DNA of 64,000 bases from positions 1 to 64,000 of the forward strand of contig JAMCUH010000053.1 of NCBI GenBank assembly GCA_023379435.1, read 5' to 3'. Both the position numbers and the translations under genes were made by a program. The notes beneath the pieces were generated by a model. It was not told the origin of the DNA. It was given only the letters and a program-made list of their open reading frames with translations, and did not search any database. Of the stretch, positions 1 through 20,412 are shown piece by piece. Source of the DNA: Thermoplasmatota archaeon. GTDB taxonomy: Archaea > Thermoplasmatota > Thermoplasmata > Thermoplasmatales > Thermoplasmataceae. Numbering within the stretch: position 1 is the first letter of the stretch; each line of letters begins with the position of its first letter.

Positions 1-86
1 GGAACAGGCCTGATCTCACTGGTAGAGTGTACTCAGAAAAAGAAGTCAGGGAAATGCGAAATGAACGTATCTCGCGTCTATCTTGA
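1..86 (+). CDS. C-terminal end of a VapB-like antitoxin (partial, runs off window start)
   Basis: Open frame ...NRPDLTGRVYSEKEVREMRNERISRLS* ends at 86 and overlaps the start of the downstream PIN toxin, typical VapBC layout. Confidence 0.6.
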   Translation, partial: NRPDLTGRVYSEKEVREMRNERISRLS

Positions 87-501
87 TACCAGTATACTGA
101 TCAAAAGGTACGTTAAGGAGGAAAACACCACCCTAGCTGACAGCTACTTCCATAAAGCCCAGCGAGGGGAGACAGTTATTTGTCTGTCTGAGATCAACCT
201 TGGCGAGGCGGCTGTTGTTTTTGACAAATACTCCAGGAAAACGGGTATTGACGTGAGAAACCGTCTCCAAGCAATGCTAAGTGAGTTGGGCTCACTTGAA
301 AGATCCTCCTCGGTTGAAATATATCCTGTTAGTAGCCAGATAATCAGGAAAGCTGTCGAGGCAGTTCTTGAACTACACATATACATTGTAGATGCAATTC
401 AGCTGGAAACCTGTATTGAAGGAGGGGCGACTATGTTCTGCTCGGCTGACATGGAACTTAATGCAGCAGCCAAGAAGCTTGGTATAGAAACGGCCCTGTG
501 A
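61..501 (+). CDS. vapC: PIN-domain toxin, VapC family
   Basis: VYLDTSILIKRYVKEE N-terminus and ...HIYIVDAIQLETCIEGGATMFCSAD acidic PIN motifs. Confidence 0.85.
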   Translation: MNVSRVYLDTSILIKRYVKEENTTLADSYFHKAQRGETVICLSEINLGEAAVVFDKYSRKTGIDVRNRLQAMLSELGSLERSSSVEIYPVSSQIIRKAVEAVLELHIYIVDAIQLETCIEGGATMFCSADMELNAAAKKLGIETAL

Positions 502-627
502 GTGCCGTATTATGATTTTTCTTTTCTATTTGGGGAACTTCTAATCAGGCATAAGTATCAATCCCAGGTATAATGCGAGAACAGCAACTAGCTTCTTGTC
601 TCAAGAACCTTCAACAGTATTTCCTTA

Positions 628-655
628 AACATTAATCAAATCACTACCGGTCCAC
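628..655. repeat. Copy A of an intergenic repeat AAACATTAATCAAATCnnnACCGGTCCA
   Basis: Direct match by eye with copies near 1862 and 2689. Confidence 0.6.
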
Positions 656-733
656 TAGGTTTCTCTGGCAATAAAACCAAAGTCACCTCTACCTGTCAAA
701 ATTCGTCCAGTTACATAAGAACTGTATATAACG

Positions 734-1282
734 ATGGAATATTATCTTCGTATGGTTTCAAGAAGTGATTTGCTACTTTCTTTCATCTACGCGTGGGGAA
801 AGTCAAAGAAGAACAATGAGCCAGTCCCATCAGTTACACATTTACAGAAAGAGATTTTTCTCCTCTGTAGAAGGACTCCGTTCGCAGAAATGAAAGATGT
901 CTATCACTTCGAACCTCTCTGGTATGGCCCATTTTCCAAGGAGCTTTCCAGTGATCTTACCGATTTCCAATCGAGAGGTATAATTTCATTCGGTGAAGTG
1001 AGACTTACCAACGAAGGATTTAAAATTGCCGCTTCCATCTGGAATAATTTAACTGACTTTGAAAAACAGCAAATATTTGACGTAAAGATCAACTTCAATT
1101 ATATGAGTTTAAATGAATTGCTTGATACGGTGTATTCAATGTACCCAAAATTCACTAAGAGATCGGCCCTCGAGAAGGAGGTAGTTGATAAGTACTTCGC
1201 TGATTTTCTACAGCAAAATGGAATAACTGAAGAAGATGTAGTTTCCGCTGTCAACTTGGCTAAGAAGACATTGAGACAATAA
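734..1282 (+). CDS. Panacea/SocA-like antitoxin-type protein (tentative)
   Basis: LQKEIFLL...FEPLWYGPFSKELSSDLTDFQSRGII...LTNEGF layout; directly followed in frame by a PIN domain. Confidence 0.45.
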   Translation: MEYYLRMVSRSDLLLSFIYAWGKSKKNNEPVPSVTHLQKEIFLLCRRTPFAEMKDVYHFEPLWYGPFSKELSSDLTDFQSRGIISFGEVRLTNEGFKIAASIWNNLTDFEKQQIFDVKINFNYMSLNELLDTVYSMYPKFTKRSALEKEVVDKYFADFLQQNGITEEDVVSAVNLAKKTLRQ

Positions 1283-1771
1283 ATTCAACTCGTAATAGAC
1301 ACAAATGTCGTGTTGGCCTATCTGATCTCAGGTTCCAATCAATCCTCAAACGCTAGGGTATGCAGGAGGGTTGTAAGTGGATCTGATAAAGCATTTACAT
1401 GCGATATACTATACGGCGAATTGAAAAGACTTCTTGATTTAGATCCAGACCTGGTTGAGAAAATTTCACAAAGTGGAAAGAAGGAAAGAGACGTATTTCG
1501 CGCATTAGATAATGTTAGGACTGAGTATTTGAACTCTAGACTTGACCCTTACGTTATGCAATTGAATTTTGTTAAAACCGAGAATCTTACAATAGATCCT
1601 AAGGCAATAAAAGATGTGGGTAACGATTGGTACATGATTTCTATAGCCAAATCTGTCAATATAGATTACATTATCACATGGAATACCCAAGATATTCTCA
1701 AGTATGCTGCAGTAAATGGCATAGACTTAAAGAGGATATTGGAGCCTCCAAAATACTTAGGGTTATTGTAA
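1283..1771 (+). CDS. PIN-domain protein; conserved frame begins immediately after the TAA of the upstream gene and lacks a canonical start before the catalytic Asp
   Basis: IQLVIDTNVVLAYLISGSNQSSNARVCRRV...NDWYMISIAKSVNIDYIITWNTQDI; ORF track start (GTG 1310) would cut off the PIN DTN motif. Confidence 0.7.
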   Translation: MQLVIDTNVVLAYLISGSNQSSNARVCRRVVSGSDKAFTCDILYGELKRLLDLDPDLVEKISQSGKKERDVFRALDNVRTEYLNSRLDPYVMQLNFVKTENLTIDPKAIKDVGNDWYMISIAKSVNIDYIITWNTQDILKYAAVNGIDLKRILEPPKYLGLL

Positions 1772-1861
1772 TGAACGATAACGTCTTCGGTGAGTGCATC
1801 GAAATCTTGGTTTTTACCAAGTATGCCATCTCTGTTTTTGTGAGGATTTTGTATTCGCTTG

Positions 1862-1890
1862 AAACATTAATCAAATCCTAACCAGTACAA
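1862..1890. repeat. Copy B of intergenic repeat (AAACATTAATCAAATCCTAACCAGTACAAG)
   Basis: By-eye match to copies A and C. Confidence 0.55.
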
Positions 1891-1940
1891 GAATACGATA
1901 GTCAATAATTATCTCATAAGGATAATGTGCAAAAATAGGT

Positions 1941-2327
1941 TTAGCCCAGATCAGAGCTCTTTCGTGTCATTACTTTGGAACTTGCAATCTTGTACAGTTT
2001 CAAGTCATCAGTAACAAAATTGTAACCTGCTTCAATGGCTGATACAAGATAAGATGAATCGTAGAATGTTAGCCCATCCTCTAATGATAAGTTCAGCACA
2101 GAATCTGGTGACGGTGTGATTTGTTCCATTGAATCGATTAATTCGAATATTACAGCACCTAACTCTGTTGCTTCTTTCTTTGATATATTATTTCTAATTT
2201 TAGCACCTTTCCATAAAACGTTACCTATTTCATATTTGGCAATTGGAATCGTTGCCCCGACAATGAGTATATTATACTTACCTTTCTGAAAGAGGTTAAA
2301 AATTGCAGAAGCATCCAGTAGGTTCAT
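1941..2327 (-). CDS. vapC: PIN-domain toxin, VapC family
   Basis: MNLLDASAIFNLFQKGK..., FYDSSYLVSAIEAGYNFVTDD. Confidence 0.85.
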   Translation of the reverse strand: MNLLDASAIFNLFQKGKYNILIVGATIPIAKYEIGNVLWKGAKIRNNISKKEATELGAVIFELIDSMEQITPSPDSVLNLSLEDGLTFYDSSYLVSAIEAGYNFVTDDLKLYKIASSKVMTRKSSDLG

Positions 2328-2551
2328 CTTTCTCTGTCTTCCCTGATGTCTGAAACTATTTCATCCAGATTCAGTTTCGAAATAACAGGCGTCATTCTCT
2401 TCATTTTCTCTATTAAGGCCTTATTGCTAGCCTTTCTGATTTCTTCTTGTACTGCTTTTCTGATAATTTCTGTTGGATTTAATCCAAGTTCCCTTAATTT
2501 TTCTCTATCTTCTTGTGAAATTTTTGCAGATACGGTTGTATATATTCTCAT
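2324..2551 (-). CDS. vapB: VapB-like antitoxin (CopG/RHH-like)
   Basis: MRIYTTVSAKISQEDREKLRELGLNPTEIIRKAVQEEI; 4-nt overlap with the VapC start. Confidence 0.75.
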   Translation of the reverse strand: MRIYTTVSAKISQEDREKLRELGLNPTEIIRKAVQEEIRKASNKALIEKMKRMTPVISKLNLDEIVSDIREDRER

Positions 2552-2688
2552 ACTACATTATGTTATACACATATATTAAAAATGTGTATTACGCGATGTA
2601 GTCGATAGTAAACTACAGAATCCTACTTCATTTCCTGTAAGCCTTCGTGTTCGCATAAATTCCCCCGCATATCAGTATTATTTAGGCT

Positions 2689-2718
2689 TAACATTTTAAT
2701 CAAATACCGACCGGTCCA
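2689..2718. repeat. Copy C of intergenic repeat (TTAACATTTTAATCAAATACCGACCGGTCCAT)
   Basis: By-eye match to copies A and B. Confidence 0.55.
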
Positions 2719-3277
2719 TTCTGAATTTCGTGGAATCTTTGACTCAAGTTAATGATGTCACGTTATTTGGTATTTACTAGTTTTTAAGTGTCTTATTGAA
2801 TCTAAAAAATTTGGGACAATAAATTTTTGGGGCCACGGCCTTTCAGTGCTAATCAGGACAGTGGATGATTCAATTTTTACGATGATCCATGGGCTTTTTT
2901 ATTCTAAAATCGCCCAAATGTATGTACACATGAGTGGAACATACTACAAACCTAGCGTAAGTTTCATCGACCAGGAAGATGAAATACCAGTTTTCTGCTA
3001 TGATTAAATGGACGAAGGTTTTAAACACAATAGTCAGGCCAGTGGACACGAATCTTGCCATTATGTTCTTTCAAATGGTAAGATCTGTTAAGCCTTTGAA
3101 TAAACCAAAACAGACATCATATTCAAACTCCTGAAAGTCAAATAATTGAACTGCCTATCACTTTGGACACCTAAATGCCCGTTTCCGGTTAAAACTAAAT
3201 TCACAATTAGGGTCTTCAAAAGTGACTGAACTCATGATATTTATTTGCTTCTGTACACCCATTAGCGTTACAGTAAT

Positions 3278-3688
3278 CTATGAGATTTCATCAATGATCT
3301 TAATACCTCTGACCTTCTTGAATGCTTTATCGTGAGTTAGAAGAACTTTTGATCCAGCGGCCTTCATGGTGGCAAGAATAACGCAATCTCTTCCTCCGAG
3401 TCCACTTATGGAATATTTAGATAGGAAACTGATTGAGGATTGCAAAATGGTGTAGGTGAAATCAACCAAGGTAAGAGTGGAAAGACTGGTTATCATTTCT
3501 ATTTTTTCTTCCAGTACATTTACTGGAAGGATTCGGAAATAATGAGCCACTTCCATAAGGGTTACCGTACTCAAAACTACCCCTCCTCTTATGGCACTCT
3601 GCATTGATTCGTTCACGTAAATATGCTCAGGAAATCTTTCATCAAACCAGTAAATCCAATAATTCGCATCGACATACACCGGCTCCAA
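3278..3688 (-). CDS. vapC: PIN-domain toxin, VapC family
   Basis: MEPVYVDANYWIYWFDERFPEH...GGRDCVILATMKAAGSKVLLTHDKAF. Confidence 0.85.
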   Translation of the reverse strand: MEPVYVDANYWIYWFDERFPEHIYVNESMQSAIRGGVVLSTVTLMEVAHYFRILPVNVLEEKIEMITSLSTLTLVDFTYTILQSSISFLSKYSISGLGGRDCVILATMKAAGSKVLLTHDKAFKKVRGIKIIDEIS

Positions 3689-3695
3689 GGCAGAT

Positions 3696-3965
3696 TCACT
3701 TCCAGATTTTCTTGAGATCTAGAGGATCAGAAACAGGTACTTTGGAATCTTTCTTAATGAAACCTTTCATATTTAGAATGAATTCCTCCGGTGATACTGC
3801 TTTCTCAAGTATTATTCTGTTTGATTCTGCATGTAGTTTTACGACCATTCCCTTCTTAAGACCAAGTGCTTCCCGAATCTCCTTTGAAATTACGATCCTT
3901 CCCTTATCATCAATTACTGCTTCTTGAGTCATTCCCACTATAATTCCCACATTATTCAAACGCAT
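3696..3965 (-). CDS. AbrB/SpoVT-type antitoxin
   Basis: AVIDDKGRIVISKEIREALGLKKGMVVKL. Confidence 0.85.
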   Translation of the reverse strand: MRLNNVGIIVGMTQEAVIDDKGRIVISKEIREALGLKKGMVVKLHAESNRIILEKAVSPEEFILNMKGFIKKDSKVPVSDPLDLKKIWK

Positions 3966-4327
3966 AAAAATATTTCTCTCATTACAACTGTGATGAAATG
4001 CTTAAGAGCCCAGAATAGGGAAAATTAACATCCATACATTGTTATTGGGGGATCACTGTTTAAGGAAGTGATATAATGGCCGATATGAATGAGAAAGTAG
4101 TTATGAGGGCTGGTACCTAAGCTTTTCTCACATATTCCCACTCTGTATCTACTCCTGATTATTTCCTGTAACTGTCTGTCTTCATCATGTAATATAATGG
4201 AGTTAGCTTTCCTTGGTACAATATGACACGACTAATCTGTATATACACGTCGGCTACTAAGTCATGTTTCTCCAGGGCATCTTAATCAAACTTTCGACAG
4301 CATTAAATATCGTCTGATTCTCTATTA

Positions 4328-12261: not shown

Positions 12262-12969
12262 ATGGGTTTATTTGATTTGATAAATTTCGCAGTTGACAAG
12301 GCATACGGTAAATTTAAAGACTCTAAATTAGAGAGTGTAATGGATGCTATTCTAAACTCCTTAGATTCTACAGCAATAAATGTAGAAATGTTACCATACA
12401 ATGAAGGAGAAGATAAGCGCAAGATTAGAGGAATGGTTTACAGATTAACTAAAGAAGAGGTACTTGGTTCTAGTGCAACTTATTTCTTAACCACTTCTGA
12501 TTGGCTTTCAAAGGTAGGTATATCCATAAGTAACGATAAGACCTATGAAGCTGCATTACATGAAAAGTCAGGTTACTTATATAATAATCTTTTTGAAGTA
12601 TATAAAAATGCCTATAATAATTATAAAGTAAAGTATAACTCTAAACCAGCTTTAATGGCCTTATTTTTATATGTACCGGAAGATAAGATTATGATGTCCA
12701 TCCCAAGATTCTTTAAGGACAAAAAAACCGAGAAGACTCTTCTGGCAAAAAGGGCTGATATTTATGAATTCAATAAACTTGATAGTATAAGGCCTGATAA
12801 TCCAGATAAATCCGAGGTTATCCTTTCGAATTTCTATTTTAGGGCTAAGCTGTTCGCATATAAAGTAGCTGAAGAATTAAAAGCCAACGATATGGATGAC
12901 TTAGAAAACGCTTTTAGGAAATTTCAGGAAAAGCATGCCCCTCATGGAGAAGTAGAATATACTTTTTAG
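12262..12969 (+). CDS. Hypothetical protein (no family recognised), AT-rich gene
   Basis: Uninterrupted 235-aa ORF with coherent charged/hydrophobic composition. Confidence 0.65.
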   Translation: MGLFDLINFAVDKAYGKFKDSKLESVMDAILNSLDSTAINVEMLPYNEGEDKRKIRGMVYRLTKEEVLGSSATYFLTTSDWLSKVGISISNDKTYEAALHEKSGYLYNNLFEVYKNAYNNYKVKYNSKPALMALFLYVPEDKIMMSIPRFFKDKKTEKTLLAKRADIYEFNKLDSIRPDNPDKSEVILSNFYFRAKLFAYKVAEELKANDMDDLENAFRKFQEKHAPHGEVEYTF

Positions 12970-13182
12970 TGATTTTAAAACCTAATTACCATTTTAGAAA
13001 TTTTGGTATTTGCAGTGGGTTTGAACCGATCTGGTATCATCCTGTGCCCTCTTGTTCCCTGCAGATGTGATTGGCTTTGGAGTTATAAAAACTATTCACC
13101 TCCACGTATGGTGAAATAGGGGAGGTATGCAACACAATGGGAAGAACCGTAAAACTTTTAAACGTTCAACCATAACTTTTTT

Positions 13183-14334
13183 GTGGACGATCTGCGTTGG
13201 CAATCTGTTAGAAATATGTTTTTCGAAGATCCACACGTGACTGAATCTGGAGAATCATACAAAAATAATATAGTGACGTTTTTTTCAAGCCTTTTGGGAC
13301 TGGATGGACTTGATTATAAGGTATTGAAGCAGATTATTTCAGACTCGCCTGTTACTAAAAAGGAATTAATAAGAAATGTATGCGTGGGGGAAGGCGAGAT
13401 CGAGCGATCGCTGAAAGACCTGACAGAGAAGAAGTTAATCGATTCCTTTGTCAAAAATGGCGTGGAACTTTTTTTTGTTAATTCTTCCCAGTCGCGTCCT
13501 GGTATAAAAAACAGAGTTTTCAATGGTCCGAATATACCGCTGATCCAGCATTTTGATTTATTATGTGACGAAAACAGAATGAAGTCGTTTTTTGAGGCGA
13601 TTGATGCGGTCGTTAAACCAGGAGATGTGGTTCTGGACCTTGGTTCCGGCTCCGGCATACTATCCATGCTCGCGGCTAGAAAGGCAAGGAAGGTGATTGC
13701 AGTGGAACTTGACCCGCAGATCGCGGAAACTTCCAGAATCTTCATAAAGAATTCCGATTATGGAGATAAAATAACATTGCTGAATGCCGACGCCAGAGAC
13801 ATCAAACTTAATGAGAAGGCAGATGTTGTGATTTGTGAGATGCTGGACACGGGTCTGATAGAGGAATCGCAAGTTGAGGTGATGAATTATGCAGTTGAAA
13901 ATCTTGCGAAGAATGATTTTATACCAATACCTTTGAAGGCAAAAAGTTATTTGCAGCTCATTCAGGCTAATTTTTCTTTTTATGGTGAGATGATTTCTCT
14001 TCCATATTTCGAGGATAAGAACACCAGAGAAAATTATGAGGCACTGTCAGATCCTGTTGAATACGATAATTTAGATTTTAGGTATACGAATGGCACATCC
14101 ATCAACAAGGAAGTTTTTATGCGTGCGAATAAGAACGGTAACTTCAACGCTGTTAGAATTACCACTGTTATAGAACTTATGGAAGGGATGGAAGTATTCG
14201 GATCGCCATGGCTCAATCCACCCCTAATAATACCGGTTCGTCCGGGTGTTGCCAAGGTAAATGACACAATGAAGGCAAGGATTGAAATCAACTATGGTCA
14301 GGGAGTTGAAAAATTGAAAATGGAGGTGGTTTAG
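13183..14334 (+). CDS. Winged-helix-like N-terminal domain + SAM-dependent methyltransferase (PRMT-like fold)
   Basis: KELIRNVCVGEGEIERSLKDLTEKKLI; VVLDLGSGSGILSMLAARKARKVIAVELDP; DVVICEMLDTGLIEE; C-terminal beta-rich segment. Confidence 0.75.
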   Translation: MDDLRWQSVRNMFFEDPHVTESGESYKNNIVTFFSSLLGLDGLDYKVLKQIISDSPVTKKELIRNVCVGEGEIERSLKDLTEKKLIDSFVKNGVELFFVNSSQSRPGIKNRVFNGPNIPLIQHFDLLCDENRMKSFFEAIDAVVKPGDVVLDLGSGSGILSMLAARKARKVIAVELDPQIAETSRIFIKNSDYGDKITLLNADARDIKLNEKADVVICEMLDTGLIEESQVEVMNYAVENLAKNDFIPIPLKAKSYLQLIQANFSFYGEMISLPYFEDKNTRENYEALSDPVEYDNLDFRYTNGTSINKEVFMRANKNGNFNAVRITTVIELMEGMEVFGSPWLNPPLIIPVRPGVAKVNDTMKARIEINYGQGVEKLKMEVV

Positions 14335-14336
14335 AT

Positions 14337-15797
14337 TTGGAGAAAATTGTAGACTACATTAGGGAAGCCATAGAAAGTTTCTTGGACAGAAACAGTGCAC
14401 CTGAGAGTATCGGTTGGCAAGACTCGGTTCAGAATGAGGTGGGTTTTTTAAAGGACATGGAGGCTCTAGAAACATTCCTGACACCAATCAACATGCTAGG
14501 TGCGGCTAAGCTTGTTAAACCCGACTTCATAAGCACTGACGGTCTGACGAAGGCTATTGCCACTACATTCAGCAGGACCATTGATTTTATTGAGACCAAA
14601 GGTTTTCCTCCAAGCCCATATCTTGACAAGGAACTACTTAAAGTGGGAATAGATTACAGCACTACTAAGATAAATTTTTCCGACTCTGTAAGCTTTTTCA
14701 TTACTTTATTTGCAGATATATGGGAATTTTCTGGAAATTCTAGAAGCCAGGCTATAAGGGAACTGAGAATAATTCTGGAGGAAAAAATCAAATATCTCAA
14801 AGAGGCAATAGACTGGATTATAGATAACGCTAGAGAATATCCCGTAACTAAGGGTAATAGTAAAAAGGTATACTGGGAATGGGGCGAAATCAAAGGTCCG
14901 GTACCGTTACCAAGTTTATATTCAACATACTCTGTTTCTGTTGCACTGGATAGCCTGCTGGAAACGTCAGAACTTAAGAGAGAGATTGCAGACAGGTACG
15001 GAGAAGAACTGGTGAACACTCTGGTGGAACTTTTGCGCGGTGCATATGAATGGACAAGATCCATTGTGGTTTCTCAGAAAACAGAAGAGGGGAAAGATTT
15101 ATATTACGTCGAATACCCAAATGTGGATAGAACGGAAAAAATTCCCAGTAGAGGACTGCTTGTATACATCTTATTGACCTTTATGTCAGCAGAACCTTTC
15201 CTGAAAAAGGGGGAACTTGATATTGATTTGATCACCAAAATAATTGACACACTGATGTACAGCTACACAAATGAAAAGGAAGAAACCTTTCTGCAGACCA
15301 GCAATGCTCATATTATAAACATAGCAAGCGTGGATCCAATAATGTATGAGGATCGAACACTGCTTTACTGTCTGCTTGAAGGTCTTTCATGGGCCAACAA
15401 GACACTTTCTGACAATAGAGGTAAGGTGGTAACAGATGAAGAATTCCTGAAGAAAATGTCCTATGTTATCGACTCAACTCTGCGTGATATCATGATCAGG
15501 CAGCATCCAGAAAATCATCTCTGGAATGAAGAAAGCTTTAAGATTTATTACACACAGAGATCACTTGAAGCTCTTACTTATTACGCAGTTTATGTTTCTG
15601 ATGAACTGAAATCGAAACTAAATTTGATTCCCTTAAGTATGGAGACCAACCTAAGGGCTGCGGTTCAGGAGGCAGTGAGAAAAGTGACTGAGCAGATCAG
15701 TAACATGCTCATAACAGAAATACTTTCCAATACTGGAAAATTAATGAATCCAGTTTCAGAAAAAGAGGATGTTGTGAAACTCAAAACGGAGCGGTGA
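14337..15797 (+). CDS. Unknown 486-aa protein of the four-gene cassette (TTG start)
   Basis: Long ORF starting 2 nt after the upstream stop, with GGAGGT upstream; no recognised family. Confidence 0.75.
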   Translation: MEKIVDYIREAIESFLDRNSAPESIGWQDSVQNEVGFLKDMEALETFLTPINMLGAAKLVKPDFISTDGLTKAIATTFSRTIDFIETKGFPPSPYLDKELLKVGIDYSTTKINFSDSVSFFITLFADIWEFSGNSRSQAIRELRIILEEKIKYLKEAIDWIIDNAREYPVTKGNSKKVYWEWGEIKGPVPLPSLYSTYSVSVALDSLLETSELKREIADRYGEELVNTLVELLRGAYEWTRSIVVSQKTEEGKDLYYVEYPNVDRTEKIPSRGLLVYILLTFMSAEPFLKKGELDIDLITKIIDTLMYSYTNEKEETFLQTSNAHIINIASVDPIMYEDRTLLYCLLEGLSWANKTLSDNRGKVVTDEEFLKKMSYVIDSTLRDIMIRQHPENHLWNEESFKIYYTQRSLEALTYYAVYVSDELKSKLNLIPLSMETNLRAAVQEAVRKVTEQISNMLITEILSNTGKLMNPVSEKEDVVKLKTER

Positions 15798-15803
15798 AAA
15801 AAT

Positions 15804-16580
15804 ATGGTGAGAAAGATAAGTTTTTACTCCTATAAGGGAGGTAGTGGCAGAAGTGTTTCCCTTGCTAACATTGCTTTTGCTTTGGCATCAAAGGGAAACA
15901 ACGTAGGCTGTGTAGAGTTGGACATAGGTGCCCCAGGGTTATACGAAATACTTAATCTGGACAGGATGCCGGAAAAGTCATGTGTGTCACTTCTTCGAAA
16001 TAGGGATCCTGTTGCAGTGCCACAATCGGTTATTGACGTCGGTAATGCTGCGCATGTAAGCCTGAAAGGAAAACTATACCTAATTCCTGCATTGAAACGA
16101 GATGTTATGGCTGTTGAAGATATAAAATGGGATAAGAAGACTTTGGAAGACTTTAGCTCCAGGGTAATAAATACGTTTGCGAAGATGTATGAACTGGATT
16201 TCATTCTCTTTGACCTTAGGAGTGGTATAGATCTCAGTTCACTGATTGGATTGATGCTCGGTGATGAATATGCAATTTTTACAAGGCTTGATAAACAAAG
16301 CGTTGAGGGCACTTCCTGGCTAATGAACACGATTAAGTCAAAAAGTACCGTAAATATTAACCCAAGACATTTTGTCGTCGTAACGGGCTACAGAGGGGAT
16401 CTTGCCCGTATCTCACTGACCAAACTTGAAGAAAGCATCGGTGAGACCATAGAATACAAAATACCTTATGATGATAAAATGAACTTACAGGAGGAGATCG
16501 TGGTTATCACCAGGCAGAAAGATGATCCAGTGAGAGCTGCATATGAACAACTTGTTGATAAGGAATTCGCAATCGAGTGA
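15804..16580 (+). CDS. ParA/MinD-like P-loop ATPase with KGGSGRS variant (KGGVGR-like family)
   Basis: FYSYKGGSGRSVSLANIAFALASKG, VELDIGAPGLYEIL, FILFDLRSGID. Confidence 0.85.
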   Translation: MVRKISFYSYKGGSGRSVSLANIAFALASKGNNVGCVELDIGAPGLYEILNLDRMPEKSCVSLLRNRDPVAVPQSVIDVGNAAHVSLKGKLYLIPALKRDVMAVEDIKWDKKTLEDFSSRVINTFAKMYELDFILFDLRSGIDLSSLIGLMLGDEYAIFTRLDKQSVEGTSWLMNTIKSKSTVNINPRHFVVVTGYRGDLARISLTKLEESIGETIEYKIPYDDKMNLQEEIVVITRQKDDPVRAAYEQLVDKEFAIE

Positions 16581-16586
16581 AATTAA

Positions 16587-18029
16587 ATGGCGGCGGAAAG
16601 GGACGCAATAAAATTTTATGATCCGTTATACGAACTCAACGTTTTTTCAAACAGCCATAGTGTATCTATTTTCAGGCTCTTTTTTGAGGGCAAGTATTTT
16701 GAGGAGAAAAATTTTTATGAGGAGATCCTCAACACGTATGAAATGGGGAGACTGTTTCATCTTAAACAATCCGGTCTTGCCTTTCTTATTTTTCCCTCTG
16801 CAACACACAACAGGTTTGCGCATTCCATCGGTACCTGGACACTTGGAACGCTGGCAATGTCTGAATCGAAGGTGCTTATCAGCTTGGGCAGGAGAGATAA
16901 CAGACCTGGTCACGGTATAGAATTTGAATCATTATCCAATTATCTATCCGGACCGGAGAACTCAGCAAGGGGGTTAAGTTTTCTTATAAGTCTTCTTGTT
17001 CACGATATTGCCCACAAACCATTCTCGCACGTACTTGAGAGTAACGAATCCATGATTAGTGCAGGCGTTAAAACACATGAAGAGTCCGGCATAGACATAA
17101 TTCGGGGGAACAGGGATGCCCCAATTTTTGCCTCGTACCAGAAGAGAGCAGAATCCATGGGTATTCCTATGATTTCAACCGTCCTTAGTGAATATGAAGA
17201 TAAGGGGTTACTCAGTGTCAATACGATTTCTGACCTTCTCAAGGGAGGGCAAAATGATGACAGCATGATAAAGTTGCTTCACGAACTTGTAAGCGGAGTG
17301 GTCGATCTGGACAGACTCGACCATTACAACCGGGATTCGTATTTCACAGGAGTAAAACTTGCGGGCGTGGGAATAAGGGGGATACTCGAAAACATTATCG
17401 TTGATCCAACAGAAGAAAAGGTCTATATACACGAAGATGGCGTAAATCACGTTTTGCACCTCCTCTTTGCAAAGGAACTTCTATGGGAAGAGGCACTGGA
17501 TTCTGATAGGATCAGGTCCTATGATACGATGCTTAACAGAGCAGTTACCATCTATCTTGAGGAGAATTCCAATGACCCTGATGCTGCTTATGATATCGCG
17601 TCTTCTACGGATGACGAACTTGTTTCAATCCTAAGAACCGGAAAAGACTCAAGAGACTTGATAGATAGAATCATGTCGAGGAGAGCATACGTGCAGATAT
17701 GGAGTGGTTCTACGAACTGGGATCGCGGTCGATTAATGGGGCGCATCTCTGAGTTCCTGAACGATAACAGACTTGACCCCAACAGATGGCTTATCCATGT
17801 TCCTCCAAATTATGGAATGACCCCTTCCTGGATGAACCTGAATGTTTACAAGCGTAATGGTCAGATAGGACAGATTGGGGAGAATAACCCGACGCTAATG
17901 AACTACTTTGAGGGACAGGAATCTCTGAGGTCCAAGAGGATAAGAGTTTTTGTGCACCCAGATGAGCAGAATGGCAGAGACATAAACCACATCAAGCAGG
18001 AGCTCAACGAGTACCTGATGTTGGCGTAG
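16587..18029 (+). CDS. HD-domain phosphohydrolase, SAMHD1/dGTPase-like
   Basis: ATHNRFAHSIGTW, LLVHDIAHKPFSHVLE, VVDLDRLDHYNRDSYFTGV. Confidence 0.8.
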   Translation: MAAERDAIKFYDPLYELNVFSNSHSVSIFRLFFEGKYFEEKNFYEEILNTYEMGRLFHLKQSGLAFLIFPSATHNRFAHSIGTWTLGTLAMSESKVLISLGRRDNRPGHGIEFESLSNYLSGPENSARGLSFLISLLVHDIAHKPFSHVLESNESMISAGVKTHEESGIDIIRGNRDAPIFASYQKRAESMGIPMISTVLSEYEDKGLLSVNTISDLLKGGQNDDSMIKLLHELVSGVVDLDRLDHYNRDSYFTGVKLAGVGIRGILENIIVDPTEEKVYIHEDGVNHVLHLLFAKELLWEEALDSDRIRSYDTMLNRAVTIYLEENSNDPDAAYDIASSTDDELVSILRTGKDSRDLIDRIMSRRAYVQIWSGSTNWDRGRLMGRISEFLNDNRLDPNRWLIHVPPNYGMTPSWMNLNVYKRNGQIGQIGENNPTLMNYFEGQESLRSKRIRVFVHPDEQNGRDINHIKQELNEYLMLA

Positions 18030-18107
18030 TATCTGTCGACGAGATTAATACCATTTTTGATAACCTACCAGCTACAAAATTGATAAATAGATTATAGTTA
18101 TTGGTAA

Positions 18108-18136: not shown

Positions 18137-20412
<2,276 letters not shown>

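Follow-up and report, generated by a model that had tools for sequence, protein, structure and literature searches.

A mobile four-gene operon of a Thermoplasmatota archaeon, with an unnamed protein family next to a KGGxGR ATPase, as a candidate conflict system with an exchangeable effector

The window analyzed here is a stretch of 64,000 nucleotides from contig JAMCUH010000053.1, and the genome of its host, a Thermoplasmatota archaeon, is incomplete (68.7%). Four open reading frames (ORFs) between positions 13183 and 18029, all on the plus strand, form an operon that we interpret, with a probability of about 0.58, as a horizontally moving, modular system of biological conflict, probably antiviral, in which a core of a putative toroid protein and an ATPase would gate an exchangeable effector. 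Gene 1 (13183..14334, GTG start) encodes a protein of 383 residues with a winged helix-turn-helix (wHTH) and a class I methyltransferase domain resembling protein-arginine methyltransferases (PRMTs), and is a candidate modifier or regulator. Gene 2 (14337..15797, TTG start) encodes the helical core protein of 486 residues, which was recognized by family search and synteny and is probably an α/α-toroid, at low confidence. Gene 3 (15804..16580, ATG start) encodes a MinD/ParA-type ATPase of 258 residues with a KGGSGR motif, a candidate nucleotide switch, and gene 4 (16587..18029, ATG start) a SAMHD1-like HD phosphohydrolase of 480 residues, the candidate effector. The stop-to-start gaps in the ORF listing are 2, 6, and 6 nucleotides; these coordinates bear out the preliminary description of this DNA, which had reported four same-strand genes 2–6 nucleotides apart.

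Judged from sequence comparison, gene 2 founds a family that has no name in Pfam, NCBIfam, or PADLOC and lies immediately upstream of a gene for a KGGxGR ATPase. The protein has no match in Pfam or PADLOC, and its match in NCBIfam is below the cut-off (14.3 bits against 391). As a single query, the 486-residue protein matched nothing in plasmids or viral contigs, and nothing beyond two genomes in the order and the phylum; because of this result, a single-sequence search seems to be too weak for the family. Among the KGGxGR ATPase operons of the phylum, two more have a gene for 600–660 residues directly 5' of the ATPase (loci L056 and L065), and the 612-residue protein of L056 aligns with the 486-residue protein (blastp E = 4e-4; hhalign P = 2e-5). 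A hidden Markov model (HMM) was made from three gene-2 sequences, namely those of the window, of L056, and of genome G014 (Thermoplasmata archaeon WH2.bin120, which belongs to the family of the window's host but to a different genus; cassette loci L067/L023), and was run against 708 ORFs from the collected loci, 52 of which came from a genome-wide scan with an ATPase alignment. The best new matches were ORFs that immediately precede a KGGxGR ATPase gene in L075 (6e-9), L112 (7e-8), and L107 (5e-6). Further ORFs in this position followed in L109 (6e-6), L065/L114 (2.5e-5), and then L116, L118, L115, and L113; the best ORF in any other position had an E-value of 0.32.

A second profile, based on an alignment of 11 sequences (A3), was run against 892 ORFs. 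All matches with E < 0.5 sit directly 5' of a KGGxGR ATPase, at 14 distinct loci from Thermoplasmatota, from Clostridia and other Bacillota, and from Desulfuromonadales. In whole-genome searches with the same profile, the ORF 5' of a KGGxGR ATPase was again the sole match. The residues invariant in A3 are Trp182-Gly183 (14880..14885, +), Thr197, Trp396, and Thr406, Arg408, and Glu411, the last three of which lie in the motif YYTQRSLEAL (15546..15575, +). The 917-residue TIR protein of L116 was a false member drawn in by an iterative HMM, and it was excluded from A3. A KGGVGR-TPR fusion with a 341-residue neighbor (L055) was rejected on comparison. The genes 5' of the ATPase in L080/L081 and L074/L076 are possible remote relatives, for which hhalign was not significant, and they are not counted.

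The gene 3 product scores 105.7 bits with the NCBIfam model NF047398 for KGGVGR-motif ATPases, the curated cut-off of which is 90, and the G014 copy scores 98.9 bits. The type assigned to this ATPase in the preliminary description is confirmed at that cut-off. In the KGGSGR P-loop (15834..15851, +), the signature lysine is kept and an arginine is in the place of the Walker-A lysine; Lys11, Gly12, Gly13, Gly15, and Arg16 are invariant in an alignment of four divergent copies. Because of this combination, the P-loop suggests nucleotide binding with altered or absent hydrolysis, and it is more in keeping with a switch that depends on nucleotide than with a motor. It should be mentioned that gene 3 matches MinD structures by sequence, which would suit a DNA segregation or localization system in which the ATPase positions cargo and the neighboring genes are unrelated passengers. 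That explanation seems very improbable, since the Walker-A lysine is replaced by arginine in all aligned copies, no ParB-like partner was found among the neighbors, and the order of the neighbors is conserved.

Two other observations on ATPases of this type were made. In L056 (3692-4621), none of the start codons ATG, GTG, and TTG precedes the P-loop in the ATPase frame; either ATT or ATA would be the first usable codon, or the contig contains an error. The Enterobacter conjugative plasmids L140 and L144 carry an integrase, a gene for about 180 residues, a KGGxGR NTPase of 438 residues, and a gene for about 492 residues; this module lies near traI in two IncF plasmids, and the host group is an easily tested one.

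The gene directly 3' of the ATPase is variable. It encodes the HD protein in the window and G014, and a caspase-like protein (Peptidase_C25/CHAT) in L056, from another Thermoplasmata archaeon. A large TIR_2 protein is found in this position in L065/L114, L107, L109, L112, L113, and L116, and these TIR versions come from Clostridia and a methanogen. In L110, L111, L115, L117, and L118, the position is occupied by a related scaffold that lacks the TIR domain and has a C-terminal module in common; in L111 and L117, a separate TIR protein is present within the operon. A CHAT protein is also present in L085, where the ATPase lies near the contig end and no core protein is visible. Since TIR and caspase-like proteins, likewise enzymes of the cell-suicide type, replace the HD protein after the ATPase, the idea of an effector slot is strengthened. 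The preliminary description had proposed the HD protein as the effector, and these related operons strongly support the slot in which it lies. A CxxCxxCC protein of about 160 residues recurs in seven loci. Radical-SAM genes, some with a B12-binding domain, were seen in or beside KGGxGR operons (L075:543-2620, L080:9180-10733, L111:4347-5447, and L117:1067-2167).

The HD protein is probably a dNTP hydrolase, and as such a candidate effector, as judged from its motifs. Its active-site set of the SAMHD1 type is intact: Arg76 and His79 in the RFAHS motif (16812..16826, +), the dyad His139-Asp140 (17001..17006, +), and Asp240-x-Asp242-Arg in the D-x-D-R-x-D metal/active-site motif (17304..17321, +). 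The best relatives of known structure by sequence include 2q14 (E = 1.3e-18), SAMHD1 (E = 1.8e-8), and 2hek, and the score with the Pfam HD model is below the cut-off of that model. As a separate observation, a fusion of a Ser/Thr kinase with a SAMHD1-like HD domain is encoded at L023:2414-6995 (940 residues) and L063:4714-8139 (1141 residues). In G014, this gene is directed toward the cassette and is followed by a gene for 275 residues and an inosine-uridine nucleoside hydrolase gene; the L063 copy has an IS630-type element close to it. The kinase-HD locus is a possible second nucleotide-degrading conflict module.

Comparison of the window with G014 indicates how the four genes travel. The same four genes are in the same order in both genomes, which means that the arrangement is more than chance, and the earlier view of the genes as one unit is upheld by a block common to the two. 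In blastn between the two regions, this block (13149..18052, +; 82% DNA identity) starts 34 nucleotides before gene 1 and ends 23 nucleotides past gene 4, and outside it the sole similarity is an IS630-type element. The cassette proteins are 79–86% identical between the two genomes, against 73% for the conserved SBDS protein. The flanks in G014 differ from those of the window, and the cassette and SBDS lie on separate contigs there (C20 and C13, respectively). Six relatives including G014 have psmA (proteasome alpha) ahead of SBDS; the two genes are adjacent in five of them and separated by two others in the sixth. The window has katG and the cassette at the place of psmA 5' of SBDS. Because the block bounds match the genes, the flanks and sites differ, and the identity is above that of SBDS, the four genes seem to move horizontally as a unit. 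On this sequence evidence, the cassette is a mobile unit.

The 486-residue gene was found in 2 of the 117 genomes of the order, that of the window and G014, and thus the operon is not a core feature of the relatives; the preliminary description had named the opposite, a core and syntenic presence in all relatives with a housekeeping role, as a finding that would refute its candidate system. The presence is patchy in all separate scans (2/117, 1/102, 2/249, and 4/394 genomes), and the core family is rare in the phylum (4 of 394 genomes). As to conserved gene order, all four genes are kept in WH2.bin120, and the wider conserved core consists of gene 2 and the ATPase only. Since this pair is the conserved core, the proposed set of four genes does not define the system.

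The neighbors named earlier were seen again: the operon is preceded by an ORF of the IS630 type and by an AT-rich orphan ORF (12262-12969), and it is followed by katG (18235-20412). The orphan ORF encodes 235 residues and has a G+C content of 0.33; no family model matched it above cut-off, and the fetched loci contain no relative. The G+C content of genes 1–3 is 0.40–0.41, against 0.46–0.47 in the downstream katG and SBDS genes. Positions 1-4000 of the window are AT-rich and contain three PIN-like toxin ORFs and an AbrB-like ORF, which were identified by eye.

Such a setting also brings to mind a selfish element of the toxin-antitoxin type, in which the HD, TIR, or caspase-like protein would be a toxin quieted by the core pair and the methyltransferase, for the preservation of the element itself and not against viruses. 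The operon is mobile and autonomous and lies near an IS630-type element, it is tight and has one candidate toxic enzyme, and PIN-like toxin ORFs are present in the first 4 kb of the window. However, the core is large and consists of several proteins, a small antitoxin is missing, and exchange of effectors across phyla is more like conflict systems than addiction modules. We therefore regard an addiction element as quite improbable, with the reservation that conflict and addiction functions can overlap.

The gene 1 protein contains a Rossmann methyltransferase and a weak N-terminal wHTH (Pfam: TrmB, E = 0.028; HTH_24, E = 0.06). The best PDB relatives of this protein (METHYLTRANSFERASE) are PRMTs (E = 2e-15). 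Glu219 and Glu228, nine residues apart, are invariant in the copies from the window, G014, L075, and L085, and are placed where PRMTs carry the double-E loop. The S-adenosylmethionine (SAM) motif is present; a THW-type motif was not recognized by eye. These features make gene 1 appear PRMT-like and do not connect it specifically with DNA methylation. A DNA methyltransferase of a restriction system was considered and rejected, since the matches to type II methylases are limited to the short SAM motif and PRMTs fit better. Of the domains named in the preliminary description, the HD, ATPase, and methyltransferase assignments were right, the wHTH is weak, and the methyltransferase is refined to a PRMT-like one. 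Among the 708 ORFs, gene 1 matches only the copies in G014, L085, and L075. Its best match in the 7.1-Mb L085 genome is in the KGGxGR operon (4e-28; the next, 1.6e-5), and so is that in the 4.1-Mb L075 genome (7e-16; the next, 2.6e-4); both of these operons are bacterial. Because the best genome matches fall in KGGxGR operons, the methyltransferase is a recurring accessory.

These observations are combined in the following model of a conflict system. The gene 2 protein and the KGGxGR NTPase together would detect a trigger and serve as a switch that is gated by nucleotide. The core would hold or recruit an effector, supplied as a replaceable part by the gene 3' of the ATPase, and would release it upon the trigger. 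Once released or activated, the SAMHD1-like HD protein would destroy (d)NTPs, so that replication of the virus, or the infected cell, is stopped; in related operons, TIR or caspase-like proteins would be the effectors in the same slot. The wHTH/PRMT-like methyltransferase would be an optional accessory, which either regulates the operon or methylates a partner protein and thereby sets the threshold of activation. Formation of the complex, the trigger, the dNTP substrate, the direction of control, and the antiviral outcome are all inferred. An extension of this model is an undescribed class of immune system in archaea and bacteria, with a toroid and a hydrolysis-impaired KGGxGR NTPase, with TIR, caspase-like, or SAMHD1-like effectors, and with tuning by arginine methylation in some members; we consider this extension possible rather than probable.

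Several results weigh against the conflict model. The predicted structure of the gene 2 protein is all-helical and of low confidence (pLDDT 59.5), and it has no structural match with E ≤ 0.001; DUF2891 (E = 0.015) is among the top matches. Other weak structural matches are GH76, an exo-mannosidase, α2-macroglobulin, and a cellobiose epimerase, and the family profile matches a terpene-cyclase repeat weakly (E = 0.24). Because such weak matches are often α/α-barrel or toroid proteins, an α/α-toroid fold is tentatively assigned to the model. The HD variant occurs in only two genomes. The ATPase had no match in phages and four weak matches in viral contigs, and these searches gave no convincing copy in a phage or virus; in addition, the methyltransferase gave only short SAM-motif matches in viral contigs, and structural comparison with viral proteins gave no match. 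In the ATPase tree, the window copy has a long branch of its own, apart from the copies linked to TIR. Core-linked ATPases are clustered in this tree (4 changes against 12.3 in shuffles), and a single clade is not established. Since the window ATPase branches apart, the operons may share the layout without sharing every mechanism.

A further point of this kind is the presence of polyamine-type genes beside six of the core pairs from Clostridia, a setting that would be in keeping with a metabolic role. An Orn/Lys/Arg decarboxylase gene is 3' of the core pair in L112, and L109, L113, and L116 share the start of its sequence. In L115 and L118, an enzyme of the agmatine-deiminase type is upstream and AdoMet decarboxylase downstream. 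These identities are based on Pfam for L112, L115, and L118, and on sequence likeness for the others. Whether they reflect a hotspot or a functional link, these neighbors are an unexplained complication. In a regulatory or metabolic module, the core pair would control enzymes that act on nucleotides, arginine, or polyamines, and the HD protein would adjust nucleotide pools and play no part in defense. The PRMT-like nature of the accessory enzyme and the occurrence of core-type HD relatives in nearly all genomes of the order agree with such a module. However, patchy presence and movement as a block are unusual for housekeeping metabolism, as are TIR and caspase-like proteins in the same slot, and no polyamine gene was recognized at the archaeal copies that were read. 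A metabolic role is therefore considered unlikely.

If the conflict model is true, one regulatory core is coupled to three types of effector with central roles in cell death and immunity in animals, namely SAMHD1-like HD proteins, TIR proteins, and caspase-like proteases, and the logic of effector exchange would be testable in a compact operon. It would add another candidate antiviral system for archaea, with an unnamed protein family at its center. Given the PRMT-like partner, one may also ask whether arginine methylation, a modification of the PRMT type, is used in prokaryotic immunity.

The earlier interpretation is thus partly supported as a whole, and its statement that the combination is no named system stands: the whole operon matches none. 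Gene 4 shares the HD fold kinship and the active-site motifs with the antiviral dGTPase/SAMHD1 systems. Known bacterial dGTPase defense is a single gene, unlike the HD protein of the window in an operon with the core pair, and comparison of the HD protein with the PADLOC models gave no match at E-values up to 1. In PADLOC, the window ATPase partially matches PDC-M28B (64 bits; 216 of 438 positions), as do the ATPases of other copies; the other operon genes match no partner model of PDC-M28, and the operon is not a member of it. Gene 1 matches mad2 of the MADS system over the SAM-binding stretch only (residues 143–244), and no other operon gene matches a Mad model, which separates the operon from MADS as well. 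Gene 1 differs from PRMTs in its N-terminal wHTH, its archaeal host, and its operon setting. The window ATPase is above the cut-off of NF047398, which is a domain model only, and many other fetched KGGxGR proteins are larger fusions without the gene-2 family upstream.

MinD/ParA-like domains that are predicted to be inactive co-occur with TIR, peptidase, radical-SAM, and other effectors (Kaur et al. 2020, PMC7159879). The conflict systems described there, such as VMAP-ternary and FxSxx, resemble that of the window in having a fixed regulatory core and variable effectors. Their cores, however, are MoxR/vWA/VMAP or a GTPase, none of which is found by Pfam among the four genes, and their defining features (MoxR AAA+, vWA, and VMAP, or a precursor peptide and a metallopeptidase) are missing from the operon. 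The terms SAMHD1 and CHAT are absent from the main text of that paper. Neither KGGVGR/KGGxGR nor such an arrangement is named in the literature that was covered, which is weak evidence of novelty because the coverage was partial. Since MADS, PDC-M28, VMAP/FxSxx, and dGTPase systems each miss at least one defining feature, no named system that was tested fits the operon. A fixed core with variable effectors is a known kind of conflict system, and the core itself appears to be an unnamed one.

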